This document shows positions 13,285 to 25,673 of a DNA stretch of 36,334 bases, piece by piece. The translations under genes and the position numbers were made by a program. The notes under the pieces were generated by a model that was given only the letters and a program-made list of their open reading frames with translations, searched no databases and was not told the origin of the DNA. Location of the stretch: assembly GCA_017465025.1 (NCBI GenBank), contig JAFTXM010000038.1, positions 1 through 36,334 on the forward strand. The letters run 5' to 3'. How positions within the stretch are numbered: the first letter of the stretch is position 1; each line of letters begins with the position of its first letter. Origin of the DNA: Oscillospiraceae bacterium (lineage in GTDB: Bacteria; Bacillota; Clostridia; Oscillospirales; Oscillospiraceae).

Positions 13285-14307
13285 ATGGACAAGATAAAAG
13301 TAGTACAGTACGGTTGCGGCAAGATGAGCAAATACACCCTGCGTTACCTCTATGAGAAGGGCGCACAGATCGTCGGCGCTATCGGCCGCGGCGAGTCTCT
13401 GGGTCAGGACGTTGGCGACTGGGCAGGTCTTGGCGTAAAGACCGGCATCATCGTCTCCGACAACGCCGAGAAGGTTCTGGACGAGTGCAAGGCTGATGTG
13501 GCCATCATCACCACCCGCAGCTTCATCGGCGACATTTACGAAGCCATCGAGCAGTGTGTCTCCCGCGGCATCAACGTCATCACCACCTGCGAAGAGGCCA
13601 TCTACCCCTGGACCACTTCTGCCGCCATGATCAACAGACTCGACGCCATCGCAAAGGAAAATAACTGCACCATCACCGGCAGCGGTATGCAGGACATCTA
13701 CTGGATCAACTTCGTGGCTCTGGTAGCCGGCGGCTGCCACAAGATAAACAAGATCAAGGGCGCATACAGCTACAACGTGGACGAGTACGGCATAGCTCTT
13801 GCCAAGGCACACGGCTGCGACCTGACTGCCGCCCAGTTCGAGGCTGAGATCGCCCACCCCGCAGAGTTCGAGCCCTCCTACGCATGGAATGCCGCAGAGG
13901 CTATCTGCAACAAGCTGGGTCTGACCATCAAGAACATCACCCAGAAGCACGTTCCCTATATCATCGACCATGACATCTACAGCTCCACTCTGGGCAAGGA
14001 AATCAAGGCCGGCAACTGCATAGGCATGTCCGCCGTGGTCACCATTGAGACCATGCAGGGTATCGAGATCGAAGAAGAGACCATCGGCAAGGTCTACGGC
14101 CCCGATGACGGCGATATGTGCGACTGGCAGATCTTCGGCGAGCCCGATGTGAAGTTTGCCGTTGAAAAGCCCGCCACCGTTGAGCACACCTGCGCCACCA
14201 TCGTAAACCGCATCCCCTCCCTGCTGCTGGCTCCCGCAGGCTATGTGACCTGCGACCAGCTCGAGAGCGTGGAGTATCTCACCTACCCCATGGAGTACTA
14301 CTGCTGA
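13285..14307 (+). CDS. 2,4-diaminopentanoate dehydrogenase-like NAD(P) oxidoreductase
   Basis: A 340-residue protein with an N-terminal Rossmann fold ([20 protein letters not shown], then [20 protein letters not shown]) of the dihydrodipicolinate-reductase type. It resembles clostridial 2,4-diaminopentanoate dehydrogenase (Ord) in length and in blocks such as [39 protein letters not shown] and [11 protein letters not shown]. Ord acts in ornithine fermentation, but no other ornithine genes (OraSE, OrtAB) lie here, and the usual GLGAMG loop is GCGKMS. It may act on a related amino or keto acid. The ATG at 13285 follows AAGGAGG. It is monocistronic, ending at a terminator shared with the opposing crotonase operon. 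Confidence 0.65.
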
Positions 14308-14340
14308 GAATTTAAAGCAGCAATAAAGCCAATAATAACA

Positions 14341-14380
14341 AGAACCGTATCCACCTTGCGATGGATACGGTTCTTTGCTT
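14341..14380. terminator. Bidirectional terminator (dehydrogenase / crotonase operon)
   Basis: Perfect 13-bp stem AGAACCGTATCCA / TGGATACGGTTCT (14341-14353, 14362-14374), then TTGCTTTTT. Confidence 0.85.
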
Positions 14381-14395: not shown

Positions 14396-15163
14396 TTATT
14401 TCTTGGAAAGGCTTGCGGCGTAGGCCTTGACTGCGTTGTGCAGATCCTCGGTGCCGCAGCAGTAGGTGGACTGAGCCTGCTCGAAGAGAAGTCCCGCTCT
14501 CAGGCCGCCCTCATCGGTGGCGTTGATGCCCTTCTTGCAGAAGCGCACTGCGGCCTCGGGGCTGCGGGCAATGGTCTTGGCCATTTTCATGACTCTGTCG
14601 TTAAGCTCCTCCATGGGAACAACCACCTCAACAAGACCAATGCGGAGAGCTTCCTGAGCGTCTATCTTCTCGCCGGTGAGAGCAAGGCGCTTGGCCTGAC
14701 CGATACCCACAAGGCGGGTAAGGCGGGCAGTGCCGCCCATGTCGGCAGAGAGGCCCAGCTGCACTTCGGGCAGAGCGAAAACGGCATTGTCAGCCGCCAC
14801 GCGGAAGTCAGCGCCCAGTATAAACTCAAGACCGGAGCCTACACAAAGGCCGTGGACTGCGGCAATGACGGGGTAGTTCTGTTCCTGCCAGAAGCCGTAG
14901 ATACGCTGCAGCCAGGGCAGATGATCCAGCACGTACTGGGAGCTTGCGTTGATGAGATAGTTAAGGTCGATACCGGCGGAGAAGCACTTGCCGTTGGCGT
15001 TGATGACCACACAGCGTATGCCTTCCTGCTGCTCTATGTATCTTTCAACCTCGTCCAGCTCCTTGTAGAAGCCCGCCTCAAAGATATTGAGGGGAGGACG
15101 GTTGAGCGTGAGCACGCCTATGCCCTTTTCCAGATTAAAGAGGAAGTATTTGCCTTCAAACAT
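14396..15163 (-). CDS. Enoyl-CoA hydratase/isomerase (crotonase superfamily)
   Basis: A 255-residue crotonase. The CoA-site and oxyanion-hole motifs are FSAGIDLNYL and AAVHGLCVGSGLEFILGADF. The acidic residues are Glu in GSGLEF and Glu in LPEVQLGL, plus an Asp in GLSADMGGTARL. That third acid, in the (A/S)AD(V/M)G context, is where delta3,5-delta2,4-dienoyl-CoA isomerases place a catalytic Asp, so a dienoyl-CoA isomerase or mixed hydratase/isomerase role is plausible. It is last in the GntR-ligase-crotonase operon, 20 nt after the ligase, with GCAGGAGG upstream. General family certain, reaction inferred. Confidence 0.85.
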   Translation of the reverse strand: MFEGKYFLFNLEKGIGVLTLNRPPLNIFEAGFYKELDEVERYIEQQEGIRCVVINANGKCFSAGIDLNYLINASSQYVLDHLPWLQRIYGFWQEQNYPVIAAVHGLCVGSGLEFILGADFRVAADNAVFALPEVQLGLSADMGGTARLTRLVGIGQAKRLALTGEKIDAQEALRIGLVEVVVPMEELNDRVMKMAKTIARSPEAAVRFCKKGINATDEGGLRAGLLFEQAQSTYCCGTEDLHNAVKAYAASLSKK

Positions 15164-15183
15164 TATCCGTTCCTCCTGCGGTA

Positions 15184-16866
15184 TCAGCCGTTCTTTTCCT
15201 TATACAGGGCCTGCAGTGCCTTGCGGTCGGCCTTGCCGGCGGCGGTTCTGGGCAGCTCTGCGATGAATTCATATGCCACGGGGATCTTGTAGGGAGCGAG
15301 GGAGGCACGCAGATACTTCTCAGCCTCTTCGGCATCCATGGTCTCGCCGTCCTTGAGGGCTATGTAGAGAACGGGGGCTTCGCCCTTGGTGGGGTGAGGA
15401 ACGCCGATGGCGCAGGCTTCCTTGACCTTGGGGTTGGCAAACATGGCCTCGTCCAGCTCTCTGGGGAACACGTTGAAGCCGTTGACGATTATCATGTCCT
15501 TCTTGCGGTCCTTGATGAAGATGAAGCCGTCCTCGTCCATGACGACGATGTCAGCAGTATACAGCCAGCCGTCACGGATGGTGGCAGCGGTGTCTTCGGG
15601 CTTCTGCCAGTACTCCTTGATGACCTGAGGTCCGCGGCAGATAAGCTCGCCGGTCTCGCCCAGAGGCATGACCTTGGTGCCGGTGGCAGCATCGACAACG
15701 ACCAGATCAGTGTCGGGGATGCAGACGCCCACGGAGCCGGCCTTGCGGACATGGACAGGGTTGATGGTGAGGATGTTGGAGGTCTCGCTCATGCCGTAGC
15801 CTTCGACGATCTTTGCGCCGGTGAGAGCCTCAAACTGCTCCATAACGGCAACAGGGCAGGGAGCGGAGCCGCAGAACACGCCCTTGAGGGAGGTGATGTC
15901 AGCCTCGCCGGCCTTGACCTGAGGAGTGGACAGAAGGCCTATGAGCATTGCGGGAACGGAGGCCCAGATGTTGGGCTTGTTCTTGACTATCTCAGCCAGC
16001 AGTGCATCGGGCTTGGGCTGAGGTACGCAGACGATGCTGCCGCCGGCGCAGAGGTTCAGACCCACGTTTGCGTTGAAGCCGTAGACATGGTTGAAGGGAA
16101 CTGCGGCCAGAGTGCGGACATCTTCCTCGGCAACCATGGTGTAGTTCTTGGTGGTCCACAGGGCGGTACGAAGACCCATGGTGTAGACCATCTTATTTGT
16201 GAGAACGCAGCCCTTGGGCACGCCGGTGGTGCCGCCGGTGTACTGGAAGCGGACGGGATCGTCCATGCCGACTTCCACATCGGGCTCGGTGTTGGGGTGG
16301 GTGCCTACGAGGGTGTTCATGTCGTAGAGGCCTTCCATCTGGGGCAGCTCAACTGCGCCGGAGGGCAGCTGGAATGCTATGACGCGCTTTACGGCACAGT
16401 CAGGATTCTGCATCATTGCGATAGCCTTGGGTGCAAAGGCAGCCATGACGATAACGGTCTCAGCGCCGGAGTCATTCATCTGGCCGGTCAGCTCAGGAAC
16501 GGTGTAGAGGGGGTTTGCAGGAATTTCTATGGCGCCGATCTTCCATATGGCGTGCATTGCCAGCAGATACTGGGGCACGTTGGGAGACATGACGGAAACA
16601 CGGTCGCCCTTCTTGACGCCCAGACCCAGCAGTGCGTTTGCCAGACGGCGGGAAACATCGTTGCAGTAGGCATAGGGCAGGGCCAGATCGCCTATAATGG
16701 CGTAGGGCTTGGTGGGGTATTTCTCAGTCCAGTGGTTGAACCACCATTTGAGGGGCTTGTCGGCATACTCGATCTTCTCGGGCAGCTCTGCGTCCCACTG
16801 CTTGCGGGCCAGCTCGTAATTCTTTACGGCCGCCAGATCAAACTCTTTCAGATAGCTTTTGTCCAT
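15184..16866 (-). CDS. Acyl-CoA ligase (AMP-forming)
   Basis: A 560-residue adenylate-forming ligase making acyl-CoA from a carboxylic acid, ATP and CoA. Visible motifs are the P-loop YTGGTTGVPKG (209-219), VPFNHVYGF (256-264), EGYGMSET (355-362), TADIVVMDEDGFIFIKDRKK, NGFNVFPRELDE and the C-terminal PRTAAGKADRK with catalytic Lys near 545. Length and motif style match medium/long-chain fatty acid-CoA ligases; aromatic or cinnamate-type acids are possible alternatives. The start at 16866 has AAGGAGG 6 nt upstream. It lies 65 nt after the GntR gene and presumably activates the substrate for the divergent beta-oxidation genes. Confidence 0.9.
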   Translation of the reverse strand: MDKSYLKEFDLAAVKNYELARKQWDAELPEKIEYADKPLKWWFNHWTEKYPTKPYAIIGDLALPYAYCNDVSRRLANALLGLGVKKGDRVSVMSPNVPQYLLAMHAIWKIGAIEIPANPLYTVPELTGQMNDSGAETVIVMAAFAPKAIAMMQNPDCAVKRVIAFQLPSGAVELPQMEGLYDMNTLVGTHPNTEPDVEVGMDDPVRFQYTGGTTGVPKGCVLTNKMVYTMGLRTALWTTKNYTMVAEEDVRTLAAVPFNHVYGFNANVGLNLCAGGSIVCVPQPKPDALLAEIVKNKPNIWASVPAMLIGLLSTPQVKAGEADITSLKGVFCGSAPCPVAVMEQFEALTGAKIVEGYGMSETSNILTINPVHVRKAGSVGVCIPDTDLVVVDAATGTKVMPLGETGELICRGPQVIKEYWQKPEDTAATIRDGWLYTADIVVMDEDGFIFIKDRKKDMIIVNGFNVFPRELDEAMFANPKVKEACAIGVPHPTKGEAPVLYIALKDGETMDAEEAEKYLRASLAPYKIPVAYEFIAELPRTAAGKADRKALQALYKEKNG

Positions 16867-16931
16867 GTCGGACCTCCTTATAAATTATTGTATCGTATAT
16901 TATGCTGCTCTCGGGCAGCCGGTTTACAGTG

Positions 16932-17639
16932 TTATTTGCTGGCGCTCAGATAGGTTTCGGAGCTGCGTACCAGCCTGTCATAGACGGACTTTTCATCGCC
17001 GTTGATGATGTCCTTCAGGTATTTTCTTGTAAGGCGCACATTCGGCACCGGGCCGAAGGTATTTATAGAGTCCTCCCAGAACTGGATTATGATGGGCTTG
17101 AACTCATTGAAAAGAGGTGCAAAAAAGCTGTTGCCGGAAAACACGCAGATGCTGCGCTGGAAAAGGAAAAAAAGCTGAGCCAGCTCGGTGGCGCTGCAAT
17201 CTGGCTTTTGGGCCAGCGTCTCGGCCTCATTGAGGATATCATCCAGGGCCTTTATCATTTCATCGGTATGGTTGAGGGCAAGCTTTCTCAGAGTAGTCCC
17301 CTCAACGGCAATCCTGAATTCAAAGAAGGAGCGTATCTGCTCCTGGGTCATCCTGCCGCCGTTATAGCGGATGAGGGCGTTTATGGCCTCAAGACTGCCT
17401 GTGACCCGATGATCAAGGACGAATGCGCCGCAGCGGGGCTTGATCTCGATAAAGCCCTTTTTCTCCAGTGCCACAAGCCCGGCGTGGATAACCGTCTTGC
17501 TTATTTTTGTTTCCTCCTGAAGCTGGCGCTCGGAAGGGAGCTTATCCCCGGGGCAAAGTCGGCCTGAGAGGATCTGCTGCTCTATTTTGTTTATGAAAAG
17601 CTCTTCCAGAGTGGGAACAGCTATTTTCCCTATAAACAT
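16932..17639 (-). CDS. GntR-family (FadR subfamily) regulator
   Basis: A 235-residue regulator. The GntR winged helix (about 10-76) reads KIEQQILSGRLCPGDKLPSE then RQLQEETKISKTVIHAGLVA and KKGFIEIKPRCGAFV. It is followed by an all-helical FCD effector domain (SFFEFRIAVEGTTLRKLAL and beyond) that binds acids or acyl-CoAs in relatives. The ATG follows AAGGAG. A FadR-like palindrome CTGGTCGGAACA abuts its ribosome site, and the same 12 bp lies at the start of the divergent fadN-like operon. It is therefore probably an autoregulating repressor of this regulon, released by an acyl-CoA (inference). Confidence 0.9.
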   Translation of the reverse strand: MFIGKIAVPTLEELFINKIEQQILSGRLCPGDKLPSERQLQEETKISKTVIHAGLVALEKKGFIEIKPRCGAFVLDHRVTGSLEAINALIRYNGGRMTQEQIRSFFEFRIAVEGTTLRKLALNHTDEMIKALDDILNEAETLAQKPDCSATELAQLFFLFQRSICVFSGNSFFAPLFNEFKPIIIQFWEDSINTFGPVPNVRLTRKYLKDIINGDEKSVYDRLVRSSETYLSASK

Positions 17640-17648
17640 AAATTCTCC

Positions 17649-17661
17649 TTGTTCCGACCAG
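17649..17661. promoter_or_regulatory. GntR operator, regulator side
   Basis: TTGTTCCGACCAG, the inverted twin of the site at 17834-17846 (12 bp identical). It has the same symmetry as FadR-type sites (TGGTC-N-GACCA) and lies between the regulator's promoter and its ribosome site. Confidence 0.7.
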
Positions 17662-17715
17662 TTTGTCCGCTGTCAAAAAATAGACATTTGTTGAGCACCC
17701 ATTCCAACAAGTAAC

Positions 17716-17744
17716 AGTATATAACCAAGTGTACAAAATATCAA
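17716..17744 (-). promoter_or_regulatory. Promoter of the GntR-ligase-crotonase operon
   Basis: Minus strand: TTGATA (17744-17739), 17-nt spacer, TATACT (17721-17716); start near 17709. Confidence 0.65.
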
Positions 17745-17797
17745 GAGTAATTTTTATTCAATTGCTGCATTTTAACAATGATTTAATAAATACACGC

Positions 17798-17826
17798 TTG
17801 AAATATAAGTTCAGGCGTGTTAGAAT
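17798..17826 (+). promoter_or_regulatory. Promoter of the fadN-like operon
   Basis: TTGAAA (17798-17803), 17-nt spacer, TAGAAT (17821-17826). The -35 lies in an 11-bp inverted repeat (17792-17802 / 17810-17820, one G-T pair), which may be a further protein site. Confidence 0.65.
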
Positions 17827-17833
17827 TTATAAG

Positions 17834-17846
17834 CTGGTCGGAACAG
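17834..17846. promoter_or_regulatory. GntR operator, fadN side
   Basis: CTGGTCGGAACAG, palindromic except at one pair. It covers the predicted transcription start of the fadN-like operon, a clear repression position. Confidence 0.75.
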
Positions 17847-17937
17847 ATGTGTTTTTCGGCCGATGTTCACTTTGTTGAATCATAGTCCTACGGGACCAAC
17901 TGACAAATAAACCTTTTTGAGCACGAAAGGAGCAAGC

Positions 17938-20232
17938 ATGGAAAAAACAATTGTTAAATTGGCTGTTGTCGGTGCGGGTACTATGGGTGCCGCTATCGCC
18001 GCCTGCGGGGCAAGAGCCGGTCTGGACGTGGTTTTGATGGTCAGAGGCAAGGGCGAGGAATCCGGCAGAGTCCGCGCCGCCAAGGCCATTGAGACCATCC
18101 TGAAAAAGGGCGAGATGAAGGGCACCGATTCCCGCCGCATAAAGGCCTCCCTTGTGGGCGCCGATATGGAGAAGGATGCCGCAATGCTGCGTGACTGCGA
18201 TCTGGTCATTGAAGCCGTTGCAGAGACTCTCTCCATCAAGCGCAGCACCATGGAGTTTATTTTCTCCAACTGCGCCGAGCACACCATCGTCGGCACCAAC
18301 ACCTCCAATATCTCCATTGCGGACATTGCCGAGAACTTCCCCGCCCAGTGGCAGGAGCGCTTCATGGGCATCCATTTCTTCAACCCTGTGCGCTTTATGG
18401 ATCTGGTAGAGCTTATCCCCCACAAGCTCACCAAGGAAAGCAACGTGAAAAAGGTCTATTCTCTTATGAATGACCGTTACGGCAAAAGCCCCATCATCTG
18501 CAAGGACGCTCCCGGCTTCATTGCAAACCGCATCGGCTCCATGGCCATAACCGCCGCCGTCAACGCAGTGCAGGACTTCGGCTATCCCGTCAACAAGGCC
18601 GACGCTCTCACCGGCGACCTTATTTTCAGACCCAAGCAGGGCGCTTTCAAGCTTCTGGACCTGGTGGGTCTGGACATTGCAGAGCATACCACCGACTATC
18701 TGAGCACCGCCGACATCCCCGAGTGTGAAAAGCCCTACCGCAACAAGCCCGCCATCCTTTCCGACATTGTTTCCAGAGGCTATCTGGGCAACAAGACCGG
18801 CAGCGGCTTCTATAAGAAAGTAAAAGGCCCCAAGGGCACCGAGCGGCTCATGTGGGATTACGAAAAGTGTGAATACGTGCCCACCGAGAGAGTTACCATT
18901 GAATCCATCGCCCAGATAAAGGACAAGCGGGAGAGACTGCGCGCCATGCTCTTCACCCAGCTGCCCGAAACAGAATTTGTGCAGAGAGTGGTTCTGGAGC
19001 CTTTGTGGCTTGCCATGACCATCTGCGATGAGATAAGCCACAGCTTCAAGGATGTGGACGTTGCCATGCGCGGCGGCTACAACTGGATAAAGGGCCCCTT
19101 TGAGCTGTGCGATCTGCTGGGCGCTGCCGATGTATGCGCACTGATGAAGGAAAAGGGCTTTGAGGTTCCCAAGTGGGTTGAGGAGAAGATAGCTGCCGAC
19201 GGCGGCTTCTACGCCGGTTCCGCCGCTGTCGCCTACGTAAAGGGCGAAGGAAAGGCCTCCGTCATCCTCAGCAATGACGACGCCGTTCTGACCGATATCG
19301 GTGACGGTATTGCCTGCTTCTCCCTCAAAACCAAGGCCAACACCTACACCATTCCCGCAGGCGAGCTTCTCCTTGAGGCCGCAAAGGAAGTTGAAAAGAG
19401 CGAGTGCTTCAAGGCCATGGTCGTTTCCAACCCCGGCCCCAACTTTGGCGCAGGCGCAAACCTCATGGCCGTTCTGGGCGCTATCTCCGCAGGCCAGTTT
19501 GACGCTCTTGAGCAGGGTGTAAAGACCTTCCAGGACGCCAACATGGCGCTGAAGTATCTGAAGAAGCCCGTGGTCGTGGCAGCTCAGGGTCAGGCTCTGG
19601 GCGGCAGCGCGGAGCTGGTGCTCCACGCAGGCCGTGTGGTTGCCCATCAGGAGCTTTACGCGGGCCTCGTTGAGATAGGCGTGGGTCTTGTTCCCTCCGG
19701 CGGCGGCTGCAAGGAGCTTCTCTTCCGCGCCACTGAGGGTCTCAAGTACGGCCAGATGGCAAAGATAATAAGCGCCATTGATGAGATAGTTCTCCCCGTG
19801 GCTCAGGCCTCCTTCAGCATGAGCGCCGATGACGCTTTCCGCACCGGCTATCTGCGCCGCGGCGATATTATAGTTCCCAAGTTTGCCGATGTACCCGCCA
19901 AGGCCAAGGTTTATGCCAGCGCTCTTGCAGACTGCGGCTGGCTGCCCCCCGCAAAGTACACCGTCACCGCCGCAGGTGAAAACGGCTACACCCACCTGAT
20001 GGCCACCGTGAAGGTCATGCTTGAAGGCCGCATGATGACCGAGTATGACGCCGTCATCGTTGAAAAGCTGGCAAGAATATTCAGCGGCGGCGACGCTCTT
20101 GCAGGCGAGCAGATAACAGAGGAAGACGTGCTGTATCTGGAGCGCAAGGCCTTTATGGAGCTTGCACACAATGAAAAGACCATCGAACGTATTCAGGGCA
20201 TGCTCAAAACCGGCAAGCCGGTGAGAAACTAA
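17938..20232 (+). CDS. fadN: Bifunctional 3-hydroxyacyl-CoA dehydrogenase / enoyl-CoA hydratase, FadN-like
   Basis: A 764-residue protein with the Bacillus FadN order: NAD-binding 3-hydroxyacyl-CoA dehydrogenase first, crotonase last. The dinucleotide loop is GAGTMG (12-17). The dehydrogenase His is in GIHFFNP (His146), and the C-terminal dehydrogenase part includes CKDAPGFIANRIGS. The crotonase domain (about 440-640) shows GAGANLMAVLGA, GQALGGSAEL (Glu559) and LVEIGVGLVPSGGG (Glu579), so both acidic residues are kept. It hydrates enoyl-CoA and oxidises the hydroxy product with NAD. The ATG at 17938 has AAAGGAG upstream. It is first gene of the plus-strand operon under the GntR operator, with the thiolase 12 nt downstream. 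Confidence 0.9.
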   Translation: MEKTIVKLAVVGAGTMGAAIAACGARAGLDVVLMVRGKGEESGRVRAAKAIETILKKGEMKGTDSRRIKASLVGADMEKDAAMLRDCDLVIEAVAETLSIKRSTMEFIFSNCAEHTIVGTNTSNISIADIAENFPAQWQERFMGIHFFNPVRFMDLVELIPHKLTKESNVKKVYSLMNDRYGKSPIICKDAPGFIANRIGSMAITAAVNAVQDFGYPVNKADALTGDLIFRPKQGAFKLLDLVGLDIAEHTTDYLSTADIPECEKPYRNKPAILSDIVSRGYLGNKTGSGFYKKVKGPKGTERLMWDYEKCEYVPTERVTIESIAQIKDKRERLRAMLFTQLPETEFVQRVVLEPLWLAMTICDEISHSFKDVDVAMRGGYNWIKGPFELCDLLGAADVCALMKEKGFEVPKWVEEKIAADGGFYAGSAAVAYVKGEGKASVILSNDDAVLTDIGDGIACFSLKTKANTYTIPAGELLLEAAKEVEKSECFKAMVVSNPGPNFGAGANLMAVLGAISAGQFDALEQGVKTFQDANMALKYLKKPVVVAAQGQALGGSAELVLHAGRVVAHQELYAGLVEIGVGLVPSGGGCKELLFRATEGLKYGQMAKIISAIDEIVLPVAQASFSMSADDAFRTGYLRRGDIIVPKFADVPAKAKVYASALADCGWLPPAKYTVTAAGENGYTHLMATVKVMLEGRMMTEYDAVIVEKLARIFSGGDALAGEQITEEDVLYLERKAFMELAHNEKTIERIQGMLKTGKPVRN

Positions 20233-20244
20233 GGAGGTAATGAC

Positions 20245-21432
20245 ATGGAGCTTAAAAATGCTGTTATAGTAGCCTACGGCCGCACAGGTATCGCCAAGGC
20301 CGTAAAGGGCAGCCTCCGTTACACCGGCTGCGTTGATTTTGGCTCTCAGGTGCTAAAGGGCATTCTGAAAAAGTGGCCCCAGCTCAACCCCGAACTGGTT
20401 GAGGACCTTATCTGCGGCTGCGCCATCCCGGAAGCAGAGCAGGGCCTGAACATAGGCAGACTTCTGGCCGACTCCTCCGGCTTCCCCCTGACCACCGCCG
20501 GTCAGACTGTAAACCGTTTCTGCTCCTCCGGTCTCCAGTCCATTGCCAGCGCCGCCAACGCCATCATGGCAGGGCAGGCCAAGTGCATCGTGGCAGGCGG
20601 CCTTGAGAACATGAGCAAGATACAGATGCATCAGGTGGCAATCATCCCCGATTCCGCCAGCTTCGGCTCATATCCCGACAATTTCACCACCATGGGCAAC
20701 ACCGCTGAGAACGTGGCCGCCAAGTACGGCATCACCCGCCAGCAGCAGGATCAGTTCGCCCTTGAAAGCCACCAGAAGGCTTCCGCCGCTCTGGCAGAGG
20801 GCAAGTTTGACGATGAGATCATCCCCGTAGTGGCAAAAGTTCCCTGCCGCAACGAGGACGGCAGCCCCGGCTACAAGGAAGTCACCTTCGCCACCGATGA
20901 GTGCCCCAGACCCGACAGCAGCATGGAAGCACTGGCAAAGCTCAAGCCCATTTTCCGCATGGGCGGCAGCGTCACTGCCGGCAACTCCTCCCAGATGAAC
21001 GACGGCGCAGCCTTCGTTGTTATGATGGAAGAGGAATTTGCCAAGGAGCAGGGTCTCAAGCCGCTGGCAAGATTTGTCAGCTTCGCCGTGCGCGGCGTGC
21101 ATCCGGCATACATGGGTCTTGGCCCCATCGAGGCCATTCCCAAGGCTCTGGAGATAGCAGGGCTCACACTTGACGATATCGACCTTATCGAGCTTAACGA
21201 GGCTTTCGCCTCCCAGTCCCTTGCCTGCATACAGGAGCTGGGTCTGGATAAGGACAAGGTCAACGTCAACGGCGGCGGCATAGCCTTCAGTCATCCCCTT
21301 GGCTGCACCGGCGCATACCTGACCATGAAGCTCATGGGCGAGCTCAAGCGCAGAGGCGGCAAGTACGGCCTTGTCTCCATGTGCATAGGCGGCGGCATGG
21401 GTGCTGCCGGTATCTTTGAAATGCTTGATTGA
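20245..21432 (+). CDS. fadA: Thiolase (3-ketoacyl-CoA / acetyl-CoA acyltransferase)
   Basis: A 395-residue degradative-type thiolase that cleaves 3-ketoacyl-CoA with CoA. The nucleophile is Cys93 in VNRFCSSGLQS. His350 lies in GGGIAFSHPLGCTGA and Cys380 in SMCIGGGMGAAG. The NEAF motif (IELNEAFASQSLACI) is present. The usual GHPxG is SHPLG, an unusual Gly-to-Ser change beside the catalytic His. GGAGG lies 9 nt upstream. Directly following fadN as in the Bacillus fadNA order, it completes the 3-hydroxyacyl to acetyl-CoA steps. Confidence 0.9.
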   Translation: MELKNAVIVAYGRTGIAKAVKGSLRYTGCVDFGSQVLKGILKKWPQLNPELVEDLICGCAIPEAEQGLNIGRLLADSSGFPLTTAGQTVNRFCSSGLQSIASAANAIMAGQAKCIVAGGLENMSKIQMHQVAIIPDSASFGSYPDNFTTMGNTAENVAAKYGITRQQQDQFALESHQKASAALAEGKFDDEIIPVVAKVPCRNEDGSPGYKEVTFATDECPRPDSSMEALAKLKPIFRMGGSVTAGNSSQMNDGAAFVVMMEEEFAKEQGLKPLARFVSFAVRGVHPAYMGLGPIEAIPKALEIAGLTLDDIDLIELNEAFASQSLACIQELGLDKDKVNVNGGGIAFSHPLGCTGAYLTMKLMGELKRRGGKYGLVSMCIGGGMGAAGIFEMLD

Positions 21433-21446
21433 GGGAGAATAAATAT

Positions 21447-22415
21447 ATGAAAACAAGAATTACCGAACTTTTTGGAATTAAATATCCCATTATCTGCGGC
21501 GGTATGCTGTGGGTCACCGACGCCAAGCTCTGCGCCGCCATCTCCGAGGCCGGCGGCCTTGGCTGCATCACCGCAGACCAGCACACCAGCGGCGAAAGTC
21601 TGAGAGCTGCCATCAAAGAGGTCAAGGCCCTCACCGACAAGCCCTTCGGCGTGAACATCACCCTTATGCCCTCCTTCCGCATCACCGAGGAAGTCTTTGA
21701 TGATTTCTTCAAGGTCTGCGCCGAGGAAAAGGTCACAAACATCGAGGTTTCCGGCATGTTCGCCACCAAGTATATCCCCATGCTCCATGAAGCCGGCGTG
21801 AAGATCTGCCACAAGGTGGGCGCTGTACGCCATGCTGCAAAGATAGAGCGTCTGGGCTATGACGCTGTTATAGTGGCAGGCGTTGAAGAAGGCGGCCACC
21901 CCCTCAGTGACAATGTGGCAACCAGCGTTCTGCTCCCCAAGGTGGCAGAGACCGTAAAGATCCCCATCATCGCCACTGGCGGCATGGTGGACGGCAAGTC
22001 CATGGCGGCTGCCCTCTGCCTCGGCGCTGACGGTATTCTGATGGCCACCCGCTTCATGGCCTCCGACGAGTGCTGGATACACGACAATATAAAGAGCTGG
22101 ATATGCGAGCTCAACGAGATGGACACTGAGCTGTTCTGCTCCTCCATCCTTCAGGCCCGCGGCGTAAAGAACGCCGTTGTGGCAGAGGTCAACGAGCTTG
22201 AAAAGGGCGGCAAGGAAAATATGTCCGCCATCGTCAGAGCCACCTCCGGCAAGCGTCTGCTGGCAGCTCTCGAAAGCGGCGACAGAGACGGTGCTGCATT
22301 CCTGCTGGGTCAGAGCATCGGCCGCATCCACGAGGTCAAGAGCGTAAAGGACATTATCGAGGACACTGTGAATGTCTGCGCTGAGACTCTCAAGGCCAAG
22401 GCCGCAGCCCTTTAA
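21447..22415 (+). CDS. FMN-dependent FabK/nitronate monooxygenase-like flavoprotein (copy 1)
   Basis: A 322-residue TIM-barrel flavoprotein of the nitronate monooxygenase / FabK enoyl-reductase superfamily. Motifs: N-terminal LFGIKYPIICGGMLWVTDAK, ISEAGGLGCITADQ, KPFGVNITLMPSF, VIVAGVEEGGHPLSDN (the His is the usual catalytic position), and phosphate-binding IIATGGMVDGKSMAAALCLG with MATRFMAS. It sits between thiolase and a crotonase, exactly where fadE (acyl-CoA dehydrogenase) follows fadNA in Bacillus. In an anaerobe an oxygen-using monooxygenase is unlikely; an NAD(P)H-linked enoyl- or dienoyl-CoA reductase, or acyl-CoA oxidoreductase, fits the setting (inference). ATG at 21447 with GGGAG upstream. 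Paralogous to the gene at 24640. Confidence 0.85.
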   Translation: MKTRITELFGIKYPIICGGMLWVTDAKLCAAISEAGGLGCITADQHTSGESLRAAIKEVKALTDKPFGVNITLMPSFRITEEVFDDFFKVCAEEKVTNIEVSGMFATKYIPMLHEAGVKICHKVGAVRHAAKIERLGYDAVIVAGVEEGGHPLSDNVATSVLLPKVAETVKIPIIATGGMVDGKSMAAALCLGADGILMATRFMASDECWIHDNIKSWICELNEMDTELFCSSILQARGVKNAVVAEVNELEKGGKENMSAIVRATSGKRLLAALESGDRDGAAFLLGQSIGRIHEVKSVKDIIEDTVNVCAETLKAKAAAL

Positions 22416-22427
22416 GAGAGGTGTCGT

Positions 22428-23219
22428 ATGGATAACGCCGAAAGGACCCCCATCTACAAGGTTGAAAACGGTGTGGCATGGATAACCATGAACCGCCCCG
22501 AAACTCTCAATGCATTCACCCCCGAGCTTATCCACGAGATGATGGACTGCTTTGACAAGGCCGAGAGCGACGATGCCGTAAAGGCCATCGTCCTCACCGG
22601 TGAGGGCCGCGGCTTCACCTCCGGCGGCAACCTTATGGAGCTGGCCGAAATGAACAAGGACAGACTCCGCGCCATCTACGATGTGGACTACACCGCCGAT
22701 ATGGTCTACCGCCTCTACAGCATCAAAAAGCCCGTCATCGGCGCGGTGAACGGCCCTGCCTTCGGTGCCGGCATCCCCACCGCCATGGCCTGCGATATCA
22801 TCATCGCCTCCGAGCACGCCCAGTTCGGCTACTCCTTCACAGGTCTGGGCTTCTGCCCCGACAGCGGTGCCACATGGTTCCTCGCCCAGAGAGTGGGCTA
22901 CAACAAGGCAGCAGAAATTCTCTTCTCCGCAAAGACTCTGAAAGCCGATGAGCTTTTGAGTCTTGGTCTTGTGAACGCCGTTGTTCCCCACGAAGAGCTC
23001 TTGCCCACGGTAAAAAAGACTGCCGAGCGTATCGCCGCCGGCCCCTCCGTGGCGCTGATGCTCCAGAAGCGCGTACTGAGAAACGCAGTCAGCTCCACCT
23101 TTGAGCAGAATAAGGACTTTGAGGCCATCGCCCAGATTTTTGCCTCCCAGACCGATGACTGCGCTGAGGGACTCAGGTCCGCTCTTGAGCGGCGGCGTCC
23201 CCAGTTCAGCGGAAAATAA
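22428..23219 (+). CDS. PaaG-like enoyl-CoA hydratase/isomerase
   Basis: A 263-residue crotonase. The oxyanion-hole and CoA motifs are FTSGGNLMELAE and GAVNGPAFGAGIPTAMACDI. The first catalytic Glu of hydratases (GGGxEL) is replaced by Pro in GAGIPTAM. The second site reads FTGLGFCPDSGATWFLAQRV, with an Asp in PDSGATW as in PaaG-type ring/enoyl isomerases. An isomerase (double-bond shift) is therefore more likely than a hydratase. AGAGGTG lies 5 nt upstream, and the gap to the upstream flavoprotein gene is 12 nt. A small hairpin separates it from the CoA-transferase gene. Confidence 0.85.
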   Translation: MDNAERTPIYKVENGVAWITMNRPETLNAFTPELIHEMMDCFDKAESDDAVKAIVLTGEGRGFTSGGNLMELAEMNKDRLRAIYDVDYTADMVYRLYSIKKPVIGAVNGPAFGAGIPTAMACDIIIASEHAQFGYSFTGLGFCPDSGATWFLAQRVGYNKAAEILFSAKTLKADELLSLGLVNAVVPHEELLPTVKKTAERIAAGPSVALMLQKRVLRNAVSSTFEQNKDFEAIAQIFASQTDDCAEGLRSALERRRPQFSGK

Positions 23220-23225
23220 CAAAAA

Positions 23226-23256
23226 AGCCCCTCCCCTTCATGGGGGAGGGCTGTTT
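23226..23256 (+). other. Intercistronic GC-rich hairpin
   Basis: AGCCCCTCCCC (23226-23236) folds with GGGGGAGGGCT (23242-23252) with one bulge, then GTTT. It is a weak terminator or processing site inside the operon, before the CoA-transferase gene. Confidence 0.5.
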
Positions 23257-23270
23257 GAAATGGAGTAGCT

Positions 23271-24614
23271 ATGAATTGGCAAAATGATTACTTTTCAAAA
23301 TTCAAGTCAGCAGAGGAAGCCGTAAAAGTAGTAAAATCCGGCGACACTGTGGTCTACGGCGAGTTCGTGATGGTCTCCCGCTATCTGGACAAGGCCTTTG
23401 CCCAGCGCGTGCCGGAGCTTGAAAACGTGCTTTTAAGGTCCACCACCTGTCCCTTCCCCCCTGCTGCTGTCATGGCAGACCCGAAAATGGAGCATCTGAT
23501 GTATAACGACTGGCACTTCTCTCCCGCCAGCCGCAAGCTCTCCGACCACGGGCTTTGCCGATACGTGCCCATGAACTACCACGAAGGCCCCAATGCCATC
23601 CGTCAGGGCCGCGTAGGAGATATCAACGTGGCAATGCTCATGACATCTCCCCCCGACGAGGACGGTTATCTGAATCTGGGCCCGACCTCCTCCATAACTC
23701 CTACCTACATTAAATACGCAAAGCACATCATTGTGGAGATAAACGAAAGTGTGCCCGTCTGCTGCGCCACCGATAATTCCCGCCTCCACGTCTCCCAGGT
23801 GGACACCTTTGTGCAGGGCCCCAACTACCCGCTCATTGAGGTACCCACTCCCCCGCCCAATGAGGTAGACGAGAAGATAGCTGAGTATGTGGTCTCTCTT
23901 GTGGAGGACCGTTCCTGCATACAGCTTGGCATCGGCGCAATGCCCAATGCCGTAGGTCAGCTTATAGCAAAAAGCGGACTGAAGGATCTGGGTGTGCACA
24001 CTGAAATGCTCTGCGACGCTTTTGTTGACATGGCCGAAGCAGGCTGCATCACAAATAAGTTCAAAACCACTGACCCCGGCAAGATGGTCTACACCTTTGC
24101 CACCGGCACAAAGAAGCTCTATGACTTCCTTGACGGCAATAAGGACTGTCTTATCGCCCCGGTGGACTATACCAACGATCCCTATCTTGTGGCGCAGAAC
24201 GACAATATGGTCTGCCTCAACAACGCGCTGGAAGTGGACCTTTACGGACAGGTCGCCTCCGAAAGCTCCGGTATCCGTCAGATTTCCGGCACCGGCGGCC
24301 AGCTTGACTTTGTCATCGCCGCCGAGCGTTCAAAGGGAGGCAAGGGGCTTATCTGCCTTTCCTCCACATATACCGACAAGGACGGCAATCTCCAGTCCCG
24401 CATCCGCCCCTACCTTGATCCCGGCACCATTGTCACCGTGCCCCGCAGCTACTGTCCCATCGTTATCACAGAGTACGGTATCGCCGATCTGCGTGCAAAA
24501 ACCACATGGGAAAGGGCAAAGGCGCTTATTGACATTGCCCACCCCGCCTTCCGCGAGGAACTGACAAAGGCCGCCATGAAGCTGCATCTCGCTGATTTCA
24601 GAACTCTGCTTTGA
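23271..24614 (+). CDS. Acetyl-CoA hydrolase/CoA-transferase family protein
   Basis: A 447-residue family I CoA-transferase related to 4-hydroxybutyrate and butyryl-CoA:acetate CoA-transferases. Signatures: LGIGAMPNAVGQLIA, GVHTEMLCDAFVDMAEAG (the Glu of HTEM is the residue that forms the acyl-glutamyl-CoA in this family), VDLYGQVASESSGIRQISGT, GGQLDFVIAA and CPIVITEYGIADLRAKT. It swaps CoA between acids, either activating a substrate acid at the cost of acetyl- or butyryl-CoA or recovering CoA from the end product. GGAG lies 8 nt upstream. It lies between the crotonase and the second flavoprotein. Exact acids unknown. Confidence 0.87.
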   Translation: MNWQNDYFSKFKSAEEAVKVVKSGDTVVYGEFVMVSRYLDKAFAQRVPELENVLLRSTTCPFPPAAVMADPKMEHLMYNDWHFSPASRKLSDHGLCRYVPMNYHEGPNAIRQGRVGDINVAMLMTSPPDEDGYLNLGPTSSITPTYIKYAKHIIVEINESVPVCCATDNSRLHVSQVDTFVQGPNYPLIEVPTPPPNEVDEKIAEYVVSLVEDRSCIQLGIGAMPNAVGQLIAKSGLKDLGVHTEMLCDAFVDMAEAGCITNKFKTTDPGKMVYTFATGTKKLYDFLDGNKDCLIAPVDYTNDPYLVAQNDNMVCLNNALEVDLYGQVASESSGIRQISGTGGQLDFVIAAERSKGGKGLICLSSTYTDKDGNLQSRIRPYLDPGTIVTVPRSYCPIVITEYGIADLRAKTTWERAKALIDIAHPAFREELTKAAMKLHLADFRTLL

Positions 24615-24639
24615 TCAAAGGATGTTTTAAGGAGTAAAC

Positions 24640-25611
24640 ATGGAAAGAAAGATTGAAACAAGAATAACCAAAATGCTTGGCATCGAGCGCCCCATCCTCT
24701 GCGGTGCCATGCAGTGGCTTACCAAGGCAGAGCTGGTTTCTGCCGTCTCCAACGCAGGCGGCCTTGGCGTAATGTCCTCCGCCACCTTCCCCAACGCCGA
24801 AGAGCTTCGCGCCGAAATAAAAAAGACAAAGGAGCTTACCGACAAGCCCTTTGCCGTAAACCTGACCCTCATGCCCTCTCTGGCTCCCCCTGACTATCCT
24901 TCCTATATCAAGGTGTGCATTGAGGAAGGCGTGAAGATAATGGAGACTTCCGGCCGCGCCCCCGAACCCTACATGGAGCAGATGAAGGGTGCAGGCATGA
25001 CCGTTATCCACAAGTGCACCGTTGTAAAGCACGCTTTGAAGGCCCAGGCCATCGGCTGTGACGCTGTCATCATCGACGGCACCGAGGCCGCCGGTCACGT
25101 GGGCGAAAACGACATCGGCTCCATCGCCCTGTGGCCCGCCGCTGTTGACAAGCTGGATATTCCCGTAATCGCCTGCGGCGGTGTGGGCGACGGACGCGGC
25201 CTTGCCGCAGCTTTGATGCTGGGCTGTGAAGCCGCCACCGTGGGTACCCGCTTCTTCCTCTCCGAGGAGGCCCCCGCCCTTGCAGCAGGCAAAGAGATGG
25301 TAGCAAAGTATCTGGATGAGACCGGCACCACACTGGTGCTCCGCCGTTTCCAGAACACCACCCGCGTTCTCAACAATGGCCTTGCCGCAAAGGTCAGTGA
25401 GCTTGAGGCAAGCGGCGCTCCCTTCGCCGAGATCGCTCCCTTTGTCTCCGGCCGCCGCCTGAAAACCGCATTTGATACCGGCAATCTGGACGACGGCGTT
25501 CTCACCATCGGTCAGATAAGCGGCATTATCCACGACGTGCTCCCCGTAAAGGTGATCATGGACAAGATGATGGATGAGTGCTTTGCCGCAATGGACAAGT
25601 ACCGGGTCTGA
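24640..25611 (+). CDS. FMN-dependent FabK/nitronate monooxygenase-like flavoprotein (copy 2)
   Basis: A 323-residue paralogue of the protein at 21447, clearly divergent. N-terminal MLGIERPILCGAMQWLTKAE, VSNAGGLGVMSSATF, KPFAVNLTLMPSL, VIIDGTEAAGHVGENDI (catalytic-position His), and IACGGVGDGRGLAAALMLGC with VGTRFFLSEEA. The EAAGHVG form is closer to classical NMO/FabK (E-x-G-G-H-x-G) than copy 1 (EEGGHPL), which suggests different substrates. AAGGAG 6 nt upstream. Last gene of the operon, followed by a strong terminator. Function proposed as for copy 1, a flavin redox step on acyl- or enoyl-CoA. Confidence 0.85.
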   Translation: MERKIETRITKMLGIERPILCGAMQWLTKAELVSAVSNAGGLGVMSSATFPNAEELRAEIKKTKELTDKPFAVNLTLMPSLAPPDYPSYIKVCIEEGVKIMETSGRAPEPYMEQMKGAGMTVIHKCTVVKHALKAQAIGCDAVIIDGTEAAGHVGENDIGSIALWPAAVDKLDIPVIACGGVGDGRGLAAALMLGCEAATVGTRFFLSEEAPALAAGKEMVAKYLDETGTTLVLRRFQNTTRVLNNGLAAKVSELEASGAPFAEIAPFVSGRRLKTAFDTGNLDDGVLTIGQISGIIHDVLPVKVIMDKMMDECFAAMDKYRV

Positions 25612-25624
25612 ACAATTTTGCATT

Positions 25625-25660
25625 AAAAAATCTGCACAGTGAAAACTGTGCAGATTTTTT
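25625..25660. terminator. Bidirectional terminator (acyl-CoA operon / pgi)
   Basis: Perfect 16-bp stem with AAAAAATCTGCACAGT and its complement around a GAAA loop (25641-25644); U-tracts on both strands. Confidence 0.95.
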
Positions 25661-25673
25661 GTTTTTCTCAGAT

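Follow-up and report, generated by a model that had tools for sequence, protein, structure and literature searches.

How might a gene cluster that looks suited to the breakdown of acyl-CoA esters operate without an acyl-CoA dehydrogenase (ACAD)? The question is raised by a 36,334-nucleotide stretch of DNA, called the window here, from an Oscillospiraceae bacterium (assembly GCA_017465025.1, contig JAFTXM010000038.1, forward strand). The window is contig C12 of G000, a metagenome-assembled genome that is 71.7% complete with 3.0% contamination. At 14396-25611, a minus-strand operon, gntR-acs-ech1, diverges from a plus-strand operon, fadN-thl-nmo1-ech2-cat-nmo2, in which two PF03060 flavoproteins (nmo1 and nmo2) accompany beta-oxidation-like enzymes. 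The answer favored here, with a probability of roughly 0.4, is that the cluster may serve to break down an already unsaturated acid fermentatively and in NADH balance, with flavoenzymes reducing C=C bonds.

Gene calls and profile searches place in this interval every gene named in an earlier reading of the window (the original prediction):

14396-15163, minus strand: ech1, enoyl-CoA hydratase with both Crt Glu positions (PF00378)
15184-16866, minus strand: acs, acyl-CoA ligase (PF00501/PF13193)
16932-17639, minus strand: gntR, GntR/FCD transcription regulator (PF00392, PF07729)
17938-20232, plus strand: fadN-like fusion, 3-hydroxyacyl-CoA dehydrogenase plus enoyl-CoA hydratase domain (PF02737/PF00725/PF00378)
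20245-21432, plus strand: thl, FadA-type thiolase (TIGR01930 above cut-off)
21447-22415, plus strand: nmo1, PF03060 flavoprotein (profile match, PDB matches, tree)
22428-23219, plus strand: ech2, PaaG-like crotonase (active-site residues, solved matches)
23271-24614, plus strand: cat, CoA-transferase of the 4-hydroxybutyrate/butyryl-CoA:acetate family (TIGR03948, 3gk7)
24640-25611, plus strand: nmo2, PF03060 flavoprotein nearest PA1024 (profile match, PDB matches, tree)

By reading of the sequence, the start of fadN is the ATG at 17938, and 21447 is the probable start of nmo1. The label "FadR-type" given earlier to the regulator has to be dropped, as two FadR models, with cut-offs of 189 and 249, score only 36 bits; the protein is a GntR with an FCD domain (PF00392 and PF07729).

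In Bacillus, the fadNAE operon carries an ACAD (FadE) after fadNA. The window likewise has a FadN-type fusion followed by a FadA-type thiolase, but its third gene encodes a PF03060 flavoprotein rather than an ACAD. Neither an ACAD nor an electron transfer flavoprotein (ETF) is encoded in the window, as the original prediction held; whole-genome searches with PF00441 and PF01012 match only contigs C91 and C117. Eleven carriers of a FadN orthologue were compared, namely 10 of the 61 genus genomes sampled and one genome, G109, from the family sample. No PF00441 match was found in nine of the 11 (eight of the 10 in the genus sample, and G109, in which an ACAD is absent by two different domains). 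These nine genomes are 57-97% complete, four of them 93-97%, and from the listed completeness values the naive chance that nine ACADs were all lost to assembly gaps is about 5 in 10^9. ACADs do occur in the genus, as a match is present in 13 of the 51 sampled genomes that lack FadN. Because nine of the 11 FadN carriers have no PF00441 match, the regulon is, as judged from these genomes, built without an ACAD. The idea of an ACAD-free regulon thus stands for those nine carriers, but not in its simplest form, since the window's own genome and a sister genome (G609) do have the enzyme.

That the two operons form a unit is indicated by sites in the gap between them:

17650-17660, minus strand: operator O1, TGGTCGGAACA on the minus strand, just before gntR
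17798-17826, plus strand: promoter-like TTGAAA-17-TAGAAT of the fadN operon, in the intergenic gap
17835-17845, plus strand: operator O2, immediately after the predicted -10 of the fadN promoter

A palindrome, TGGTCSGACCA, lies in the gntR-fadN gap of all 11 carrier loci, exact in eight and with one mismatch in the window's own genome, G609, and G578. Because this palindromic operator recurs in every carrier, the cluster is, on sequence grounds, a conserved regulon. Two copies (one mismatch allowed) are present in nine of the 11 gntR-fadN stretches; the second copy of G609 is visible in L076, taken as a record of the same genome, and G578 has one copy within the stretch cut for analysis. The spacing between copies is 208-211 bases in the other eight two-copy species and 185 here. 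Per locus, 0 to 11 of 2000 single-base shuffles matched the best score of the operator, and the exact 11-mer TGGTCGGAACA occurs twice in the whole genome, both times at this cluster. Inexact sites outside the cluster were given no weight, with 18 own-genome matches at one mismatch or fewer against 50 in a reversed control; single-mismatch sites inside the C91 ACAD gene and inside an OYE-type gene (C71:3908) were set aside. The promoter scan returned nine promoter-like sites against 5.7 in shuffles.

Gene order is also conserved. The full fadN-thl-nmo1-ech2-cat-nmo2 run lies on one contig in seven of the 11 carriers (the window's own genome, G609, G109, G606, G583, G595, and G571). The run of G561 is divided between two contigs, with nmo2 cut; the contigs of G582, G560, and G578 end before the run is complete. 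Comparison of the order across genomes, proposed with the original prediction, therefore yields an order kept across the genus and not a chance grouping. The FadN of sister genome G609 is 98% identical to that of the window, and full-length FadN-like proteins from other genera of the family are 33-35% identical. Relatives of nmo2 reach 41% identity among the matches listed from 394 genomes of the order, while in 398 genomes of the phylum 14 have an E-value of 1e-70 or better, itself included, the others at 38-44% identity. The gene order was absent from the 13 neighborhoods fetched for nmo2 relatives outside the genus. The most similar of these (L172, 1-9981) has a ligase-like gene, two crotonase-like genes, a hydroxyacyl-CoA-dehydrogenase-like gene, and one nmo within 10 kb, in a run that also holds HpaB-type and DUF362 genes. 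A plasmid search gave at most 26% identity in its best ten rows, and a PHROGs scan added nothing further.

If the regulon itself has no ACAD, one could be supplied from elsewhere. Looking outside the window for ACAD and EtfAB, as the original prediction advised, did reveal one ACAD with EtfBA on contig C91, but without an operator in the 19-kb stretch around it; the co-regulated ACAD under the same operator that was said to speak decisively against the prediction was thus sought in the window's own genome and not found. The same ACAD occurs in G609 (which is also G200), and together with the EtfBA beside it in the window's own genome it allows for ordinary beta-oxidation with the C91 operon acting in trans. 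Such an arrangement is very unlikely, given that the other nine carriers have no ACAD match and that the C91 gene, which adjoins a LysR-like gene and has no operator, encodes an unusual protein. Its nearest NCBIfam model is acryloyl-CoA reductase, at 188 bits against a cut-off of 640. Alignment of 36 ACADs from the fetched loci (three more gave no row) points the same way. Among the 33 rows of other types, 28 have a Glu in an EG motif near the C terminus and three have it at an alternative place (E-R) instead; of the remainder, L198 is cut before the end and L196 has neither. Thus, of the 32 other rows that can be read at these positions, 31 have one of the two Glu residues, which we take to be the catalytic bases, whereas neither position is filled in the ACAD of the window's own genome or its sister (two loci of one genome).

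The C91 group (L002, 6987-12113) consists of two glyoxalase-like genes, the ACAD, and EtfBA, and the LysR-like gene beside it, seen by reading of the sequence, is divergent. The ACAD of L196 (G607:C101), which is missing both usual Glu positions, belongs to a genus member without FadN. On C117 (L003), EtfAB adjoins a GlcD-like FAD protein by reading of the sequence, and the two are probably an Etf-linked lactate dehydrogenase.

The crotonases suggest what kind of substrate enters the pathway. Both Glu positions of the solved hydratase 5z7r are kept in ech1 (9 of 9 orthologues) and in the FadN hydratase domain (7 of 7). In ech2, Glu is found at neither position in 8 of 8, the Asp of PDSG (3hrx) is kept as in PaaG-type enzymes, and such enzymes are among the best solved matches. 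We take the Glu pair to mark hydratases and the Asp to mark isomerases. Because the pair is kept in ech1 and FadN and absent from ech2, which is probably a double-bond isomerase, the regulon is predicted to carry two hydratases and one probable isomerase. This set suits a substrate with misplaced double bonds, and an unsaturated substrate fits because ech2 looks like an isomerase.

The remaining enzymes are recognizable members of their families at some distance from named models. FadN is closest to Staph_FadB (526 bits against a cut-off of 999), thl to PRK07661 (513 against 633), and acs to PRK06187 (403 against 476). None of the best 25 NCBIfam models listed for acs passes its cut-off, and no substrate is claimed. 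Among solved structures, acs ranks feruloyl-CoA synthetase (239 bits) above 4-coumarate ligase (217) and the long-chain ligase 1ult (161); this ranking favors a feruloyl class, which was set aside as no listed NCBIfam model passes. The CoA-transferase scores 491 bits with TIGR03948, below the cut-off of 675 for butyryl-CoA:acetate CoA-transferase, and 324 bits with the solved 3gk7.

As a single operon encodes a thiolase, a hydroxyacyl-CoA dehydrogenase, a crotonase, and a butyryl-CoA:acetate-like CoA-transferase, the pathway could also run backwards. In such reverse beta-oxidation, the fadN operon would make butyrate or longer acids, with nmo1 and nmo2 as enoyl-CoA reductases replacing Bcd/Etf and cat as the terminal CoA-transferase. 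From what is known of the families, however, the combination of FadN/FadA-type enzymes with an acyl ligase and an FCD regulator under shared operators indicates acid uptake, and the ech2 isomerase would be superfluous, which makes synthesis a distinctly improbable function.

Reduction of C=C bonds is assigned mainly to nmo1 and nmo2, which are 38-39% identical to each other. The original prediction described them as FabK/NMO-type; they are indeed members of PF03060, but not FabK. The FabK model TIGR03151 gives 262 and 252 bits against a cut-off of 453, and in a PF03060 tree of 61 rows nmo1 and nmo2 each form their own fully supported clade outside the FabK clade, while T. maritima FabK clusters with 28 of 29 rows from the order. 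A FabK role in fatty-acid synthesis is unlikely, with two genomes of the same genus that are 94-95% complete (G004 and G174) having no PF03060 match above the cut-off; because of these two, the genus appears not to depend on a PF03060 protein. The best solved match of both flavoproteins is PA1024: for nmo2 it scores 285 bits and the best FabK 185, while for nmo1 the margin is narrower, 217 against 200. In the tree, nmo2 groups with PA1024 (100/98, with a long-branch warning attached), and nmo1 falls into a different clade, together with eight sequences that come from other families in the phylum. Solved entries named nitronate monooxygenase reach at best 90 bits (nmo1) and 108 bits (nmo2) once 6e2a, a PA1024 entry so named, is set aside.

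PA1024 is an NADH:quinone oxidoreductase of Pseudomonas whose genome context suggests a role in fatty-acid catabolism (PMC10033279). Unlike PA1024, the flavoproteins here come as a pair within a single gut-bacterial operon. Other PF03060 proteins act on, or are predicted to act on, CoA esters. ArkA confers acrylate resistance, for which reduction of acrylyl-CoA is predicted (PMC4029986). In vitro, IpdC, whose gene is called an acyl-CoA reductase gene, and IpdF together oxidize a 5-OH group and alter a double bond in a CoA ester, and neither acts alone (PMC5380842). IpdC is a FabK-like flavoprotein of the KstR2 steroid-ring regulon, which, like the cluster here, includes a predicted CoA-transferase, crotonase, and thiolase; the IpdC pathway differs in having FadE enzymes and a steroid-ring remnant as substrate (PMC5380842), and the likeness is drawn from descriptions. 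Neighbors of nmo homologues elsewhere include crotonase (L172 and L173), and the six scanned in L178 and L182 are PilZ, EF-G, ParA-type, FtsW/RodA, M50 peptidase, and ThiF. In another family of the phylum (L175, 4285-9888), a CoA-transferase, two ACADs, and an nmo1 homologue form one run.

In most carriers, a second candidate reductase adjoins the ligase operon. In nine of the 11 carriers (G109, G606, G561, G582, G560, G583, G595, G571, and G578), acs-ech1 runs on into crtI and fnr, while in the window's own genome and G609 the pair is on another contig, with crtI 77-78% identical. G601, with ech1-crtI-fnr at a contig end and no FadN match, was left out of the carrier count. The crtI product is FAD-type and phytoene-dehydrogenase-like, and it weakly resembles carotenoid desaturases (34 bits to 4rep; 57 bits to a CrtD model against a cut-off of 550), and fnr is a fused FAD/NAD domain and [2Fe-2S] domain whose C-x4-C-x2-C is intact in all 26 aligned rows (17 distinct genes, as nine loci repeat another). 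The closest solved structure to fnr is BenC and the closest NCBIfam model is PaaE. Both are known as reductases that use NADH or NADPH, and because fnr is closest to them, electron flow from NAD(P)H fits.

CrtI-like proteins appear expanded in the genus, with matches in 53 of 61 genomes, weak partial matches included. In L163, L164, and L165 a second crtI paralogue, 37% identical, lies near the main crtI; L164 and L165 also have a second fnr (46-47%), and in L163 and L164 a GltD-like flavoprotein lies between the two crtI genes. The contig that carries the window's own crtI-fnr pair (L226, 313-6774, G000:C71) encodes two OYE-type flavoproteins like BaiCD/bilirubin reductase and one MFS transporter, with a second transporter by reading of the sequence.

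A phytoene-dehydrogenase-like enzyme beside an iron-sulfur reductase brings terpene and sterol catabolism to mind. In the limonene dehydrogenase of Castellaniella, which belongs to an anaerobic pathway, the phytoene-dehydrogenase-like FAD proteins CtmAB are encoded with the 2Fe-2S ferredoxin CtmE and the NADH:ferredoxin reductase CtmF (PMC4109377), and a relative of this dehydrogenase, delta-24 steroid desaturase, binds flavin at the His of G-F-L/R-X-N/S-T/L-H-A (PMC11061730). Near the N terminus, all 18 distinct crtI genes that have the region encode [ST]-L-H-E, the 37% paralogues included (one truncated gene, present twice in the alignment, has no such region). The [ST]-L-H part resembles the N/S-T/L-H of the consensus, but G-F and the final A are unmatched, and this is a resemblance to the covalent-flavin class, not membership. 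By analogy, the CrtI-like enzyme could act on an allylic position, as limonene dehydrogenase or delta-24 steroid desaturase does, and the CoA genes could degrade the resulting isoprenoid or sterol-type acid. We consider this quite unlikely, as CtmAB and the steroid desaturase have two subunits whereas nine regulon loci have a single crtI gene each, with reductase and ferredoxin fused, and as the cluster contains no alcohol or aldehyde dehydrogenase. The likeness to these enzymes is by description, and the desaturase is found dissimilar to phytoene desaturases in its own paper (PMC11061730).

The same flavoenzymes could instead be oxidants. A PF03060 protein or the CrtI-like enzyme might stand in for FadE and introduce the alpha-beta double bond, giving full beta-oxidation with a non-ACAD dehydrogenase. 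The missing ACAD match in nine of 11 carriers and the presence of the remaining cycle enzymes agree with this; by general knowledge, though, NAD+ is not strong enough as an oxidant to dehydrogenate a simple acyl-CoA, a keto group activates the substrate of IpdC, and the partner reductase fnr resembles NAD(P)H-donating reductases. Precedents exist on both sides, since IpdF and IpdC jointly oxidize a hydroxyl on a CoA ester and create a double bond in it (PMC5380842) and a flavoenzyme of the limonene dehydrogenase class desaturates a steroid side chain (PMC11061730), whereas FabK works in the reducing direction (PMC5380842, PMC4029986). On balance, a FadE substitute is rather unlikely.

The preferred explanation is fermentation of an unsaturated acid. 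Gene content, conserved order, operators, active-site residues, and the absence of ACAD matches in nine of the 11 carriers are read from sequence; the substrate, the direction of electrons, the repression, and the product in the following scheme are inferred. The regulon would be substrate-inducible and repressed by the GntR/FCD protein at the two operators. The substrate would be a carboxylic acid with double bonds already in place (2-enoic, 3-enoic, or poly-unsaturated, and possibly aryl-propenoic), and Acs would form its CoA ester. Double bonds would be shifted to the alpha-beta position by ech2, ech1 and the FadN hydratase domain would add water, FadN would oxidize the product to the 3-keto ester with a yield of NADH, and thl would free acetyl-CoA. 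The NADH would be re-oxidized by nmo1 and nmo2 through reduction of enoyl- or dienoyl-CoA, and in most carriers crtI, fed by the fused NADH-flavin-[2Fe-2S] reductase, may also reduce C=C bonds. Finally, Cat would transfer CoA from the reduced acyl-CoA to acetate and free the saturated acid. Dismutation of crotonate is an established mode of anaerobic growth on an unsaturated acid, and there as in the proposed scheme an unsaturated acyl-CoA is both donor and acceptor; unlike here, the reduction is carried out by ACAD, ETF, and formate cycling (PMC8805022).

Several points weigh against this scheme. The genome does possess an ACAD, its single PF00441 protein, with EtfBA on C91. The species' own crtI-fnr pair lies outside the cluster, and no operator was found at it. 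As a marker of ACAD loss, PF03060 fails in L175, where the nmo1 homologue adjoins two ACADs, and nmo1 and nmo2 may reduce quinones instead. A FadN-type fusion, a FadA-type thiolase, and an acyl ligase usually belong to the full beta-oxidation of saturated acids. The scheme is, moreover, derived from sequence, with enzyme activity and expression as its predictions. A bolder version, in which the twin PF03060 reductases and a CrtI-like enzyme with histidyl-bound flavin and fused reductase fully replace ACAD/ETF in an oxygen-independent degradation of plant isoprenoid or poly-unsaturated acids, is unlikely.

The surroundings of the cluster include two terminator-like elements:

14340-14375, unstranded: terminator-like hairpin after the ligase operon and after its opposite-strand neighbor (perfect 14-nt inverted repeat, both strands)
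25624-25661, plus strand: terminator-like hairpin after the fadN operon (long perfect hairpin)

The terminator scan gave 15 sites against 12.3 in shuffles, a number that alone is no evidence; what supports the element at 14340-14375 is the length of its perfect stem alone, not the scan counts. The cluster is flanked by a 2,4-diaminopentanoate-dehydrogenase-like gene (13285-14307, plus strand; 148 bits against a cut-off of 400) and by pgi. With both as queries in the annotation of carrier loci, these genes are found beside the cluster only in the window's own and its sister species.

No description of this regulon was found in the open-licence PMC papers searched. Its parts are of known families, and the combination and the ACAD-free build appear new among beta-oxidation-type catabolism. 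If the proposed explanation is true, anaerobic gut bacteria would own a beta-oxidation-like route that avoids ACAD and ETF and is balanced in redox by other flavoenzymes, and predictions of fatty-acid or plant-acid use with ACAD as the marker would miss it. The regulon also ties the CrtI-like enzyme and reductase pair, widespread in the genus, to CoA-ester catabolism and, being defined with its operators, makes the substrate findable by an induction screen. It may represent a new oxygen-free use of unsaturated plant or lipid acids.

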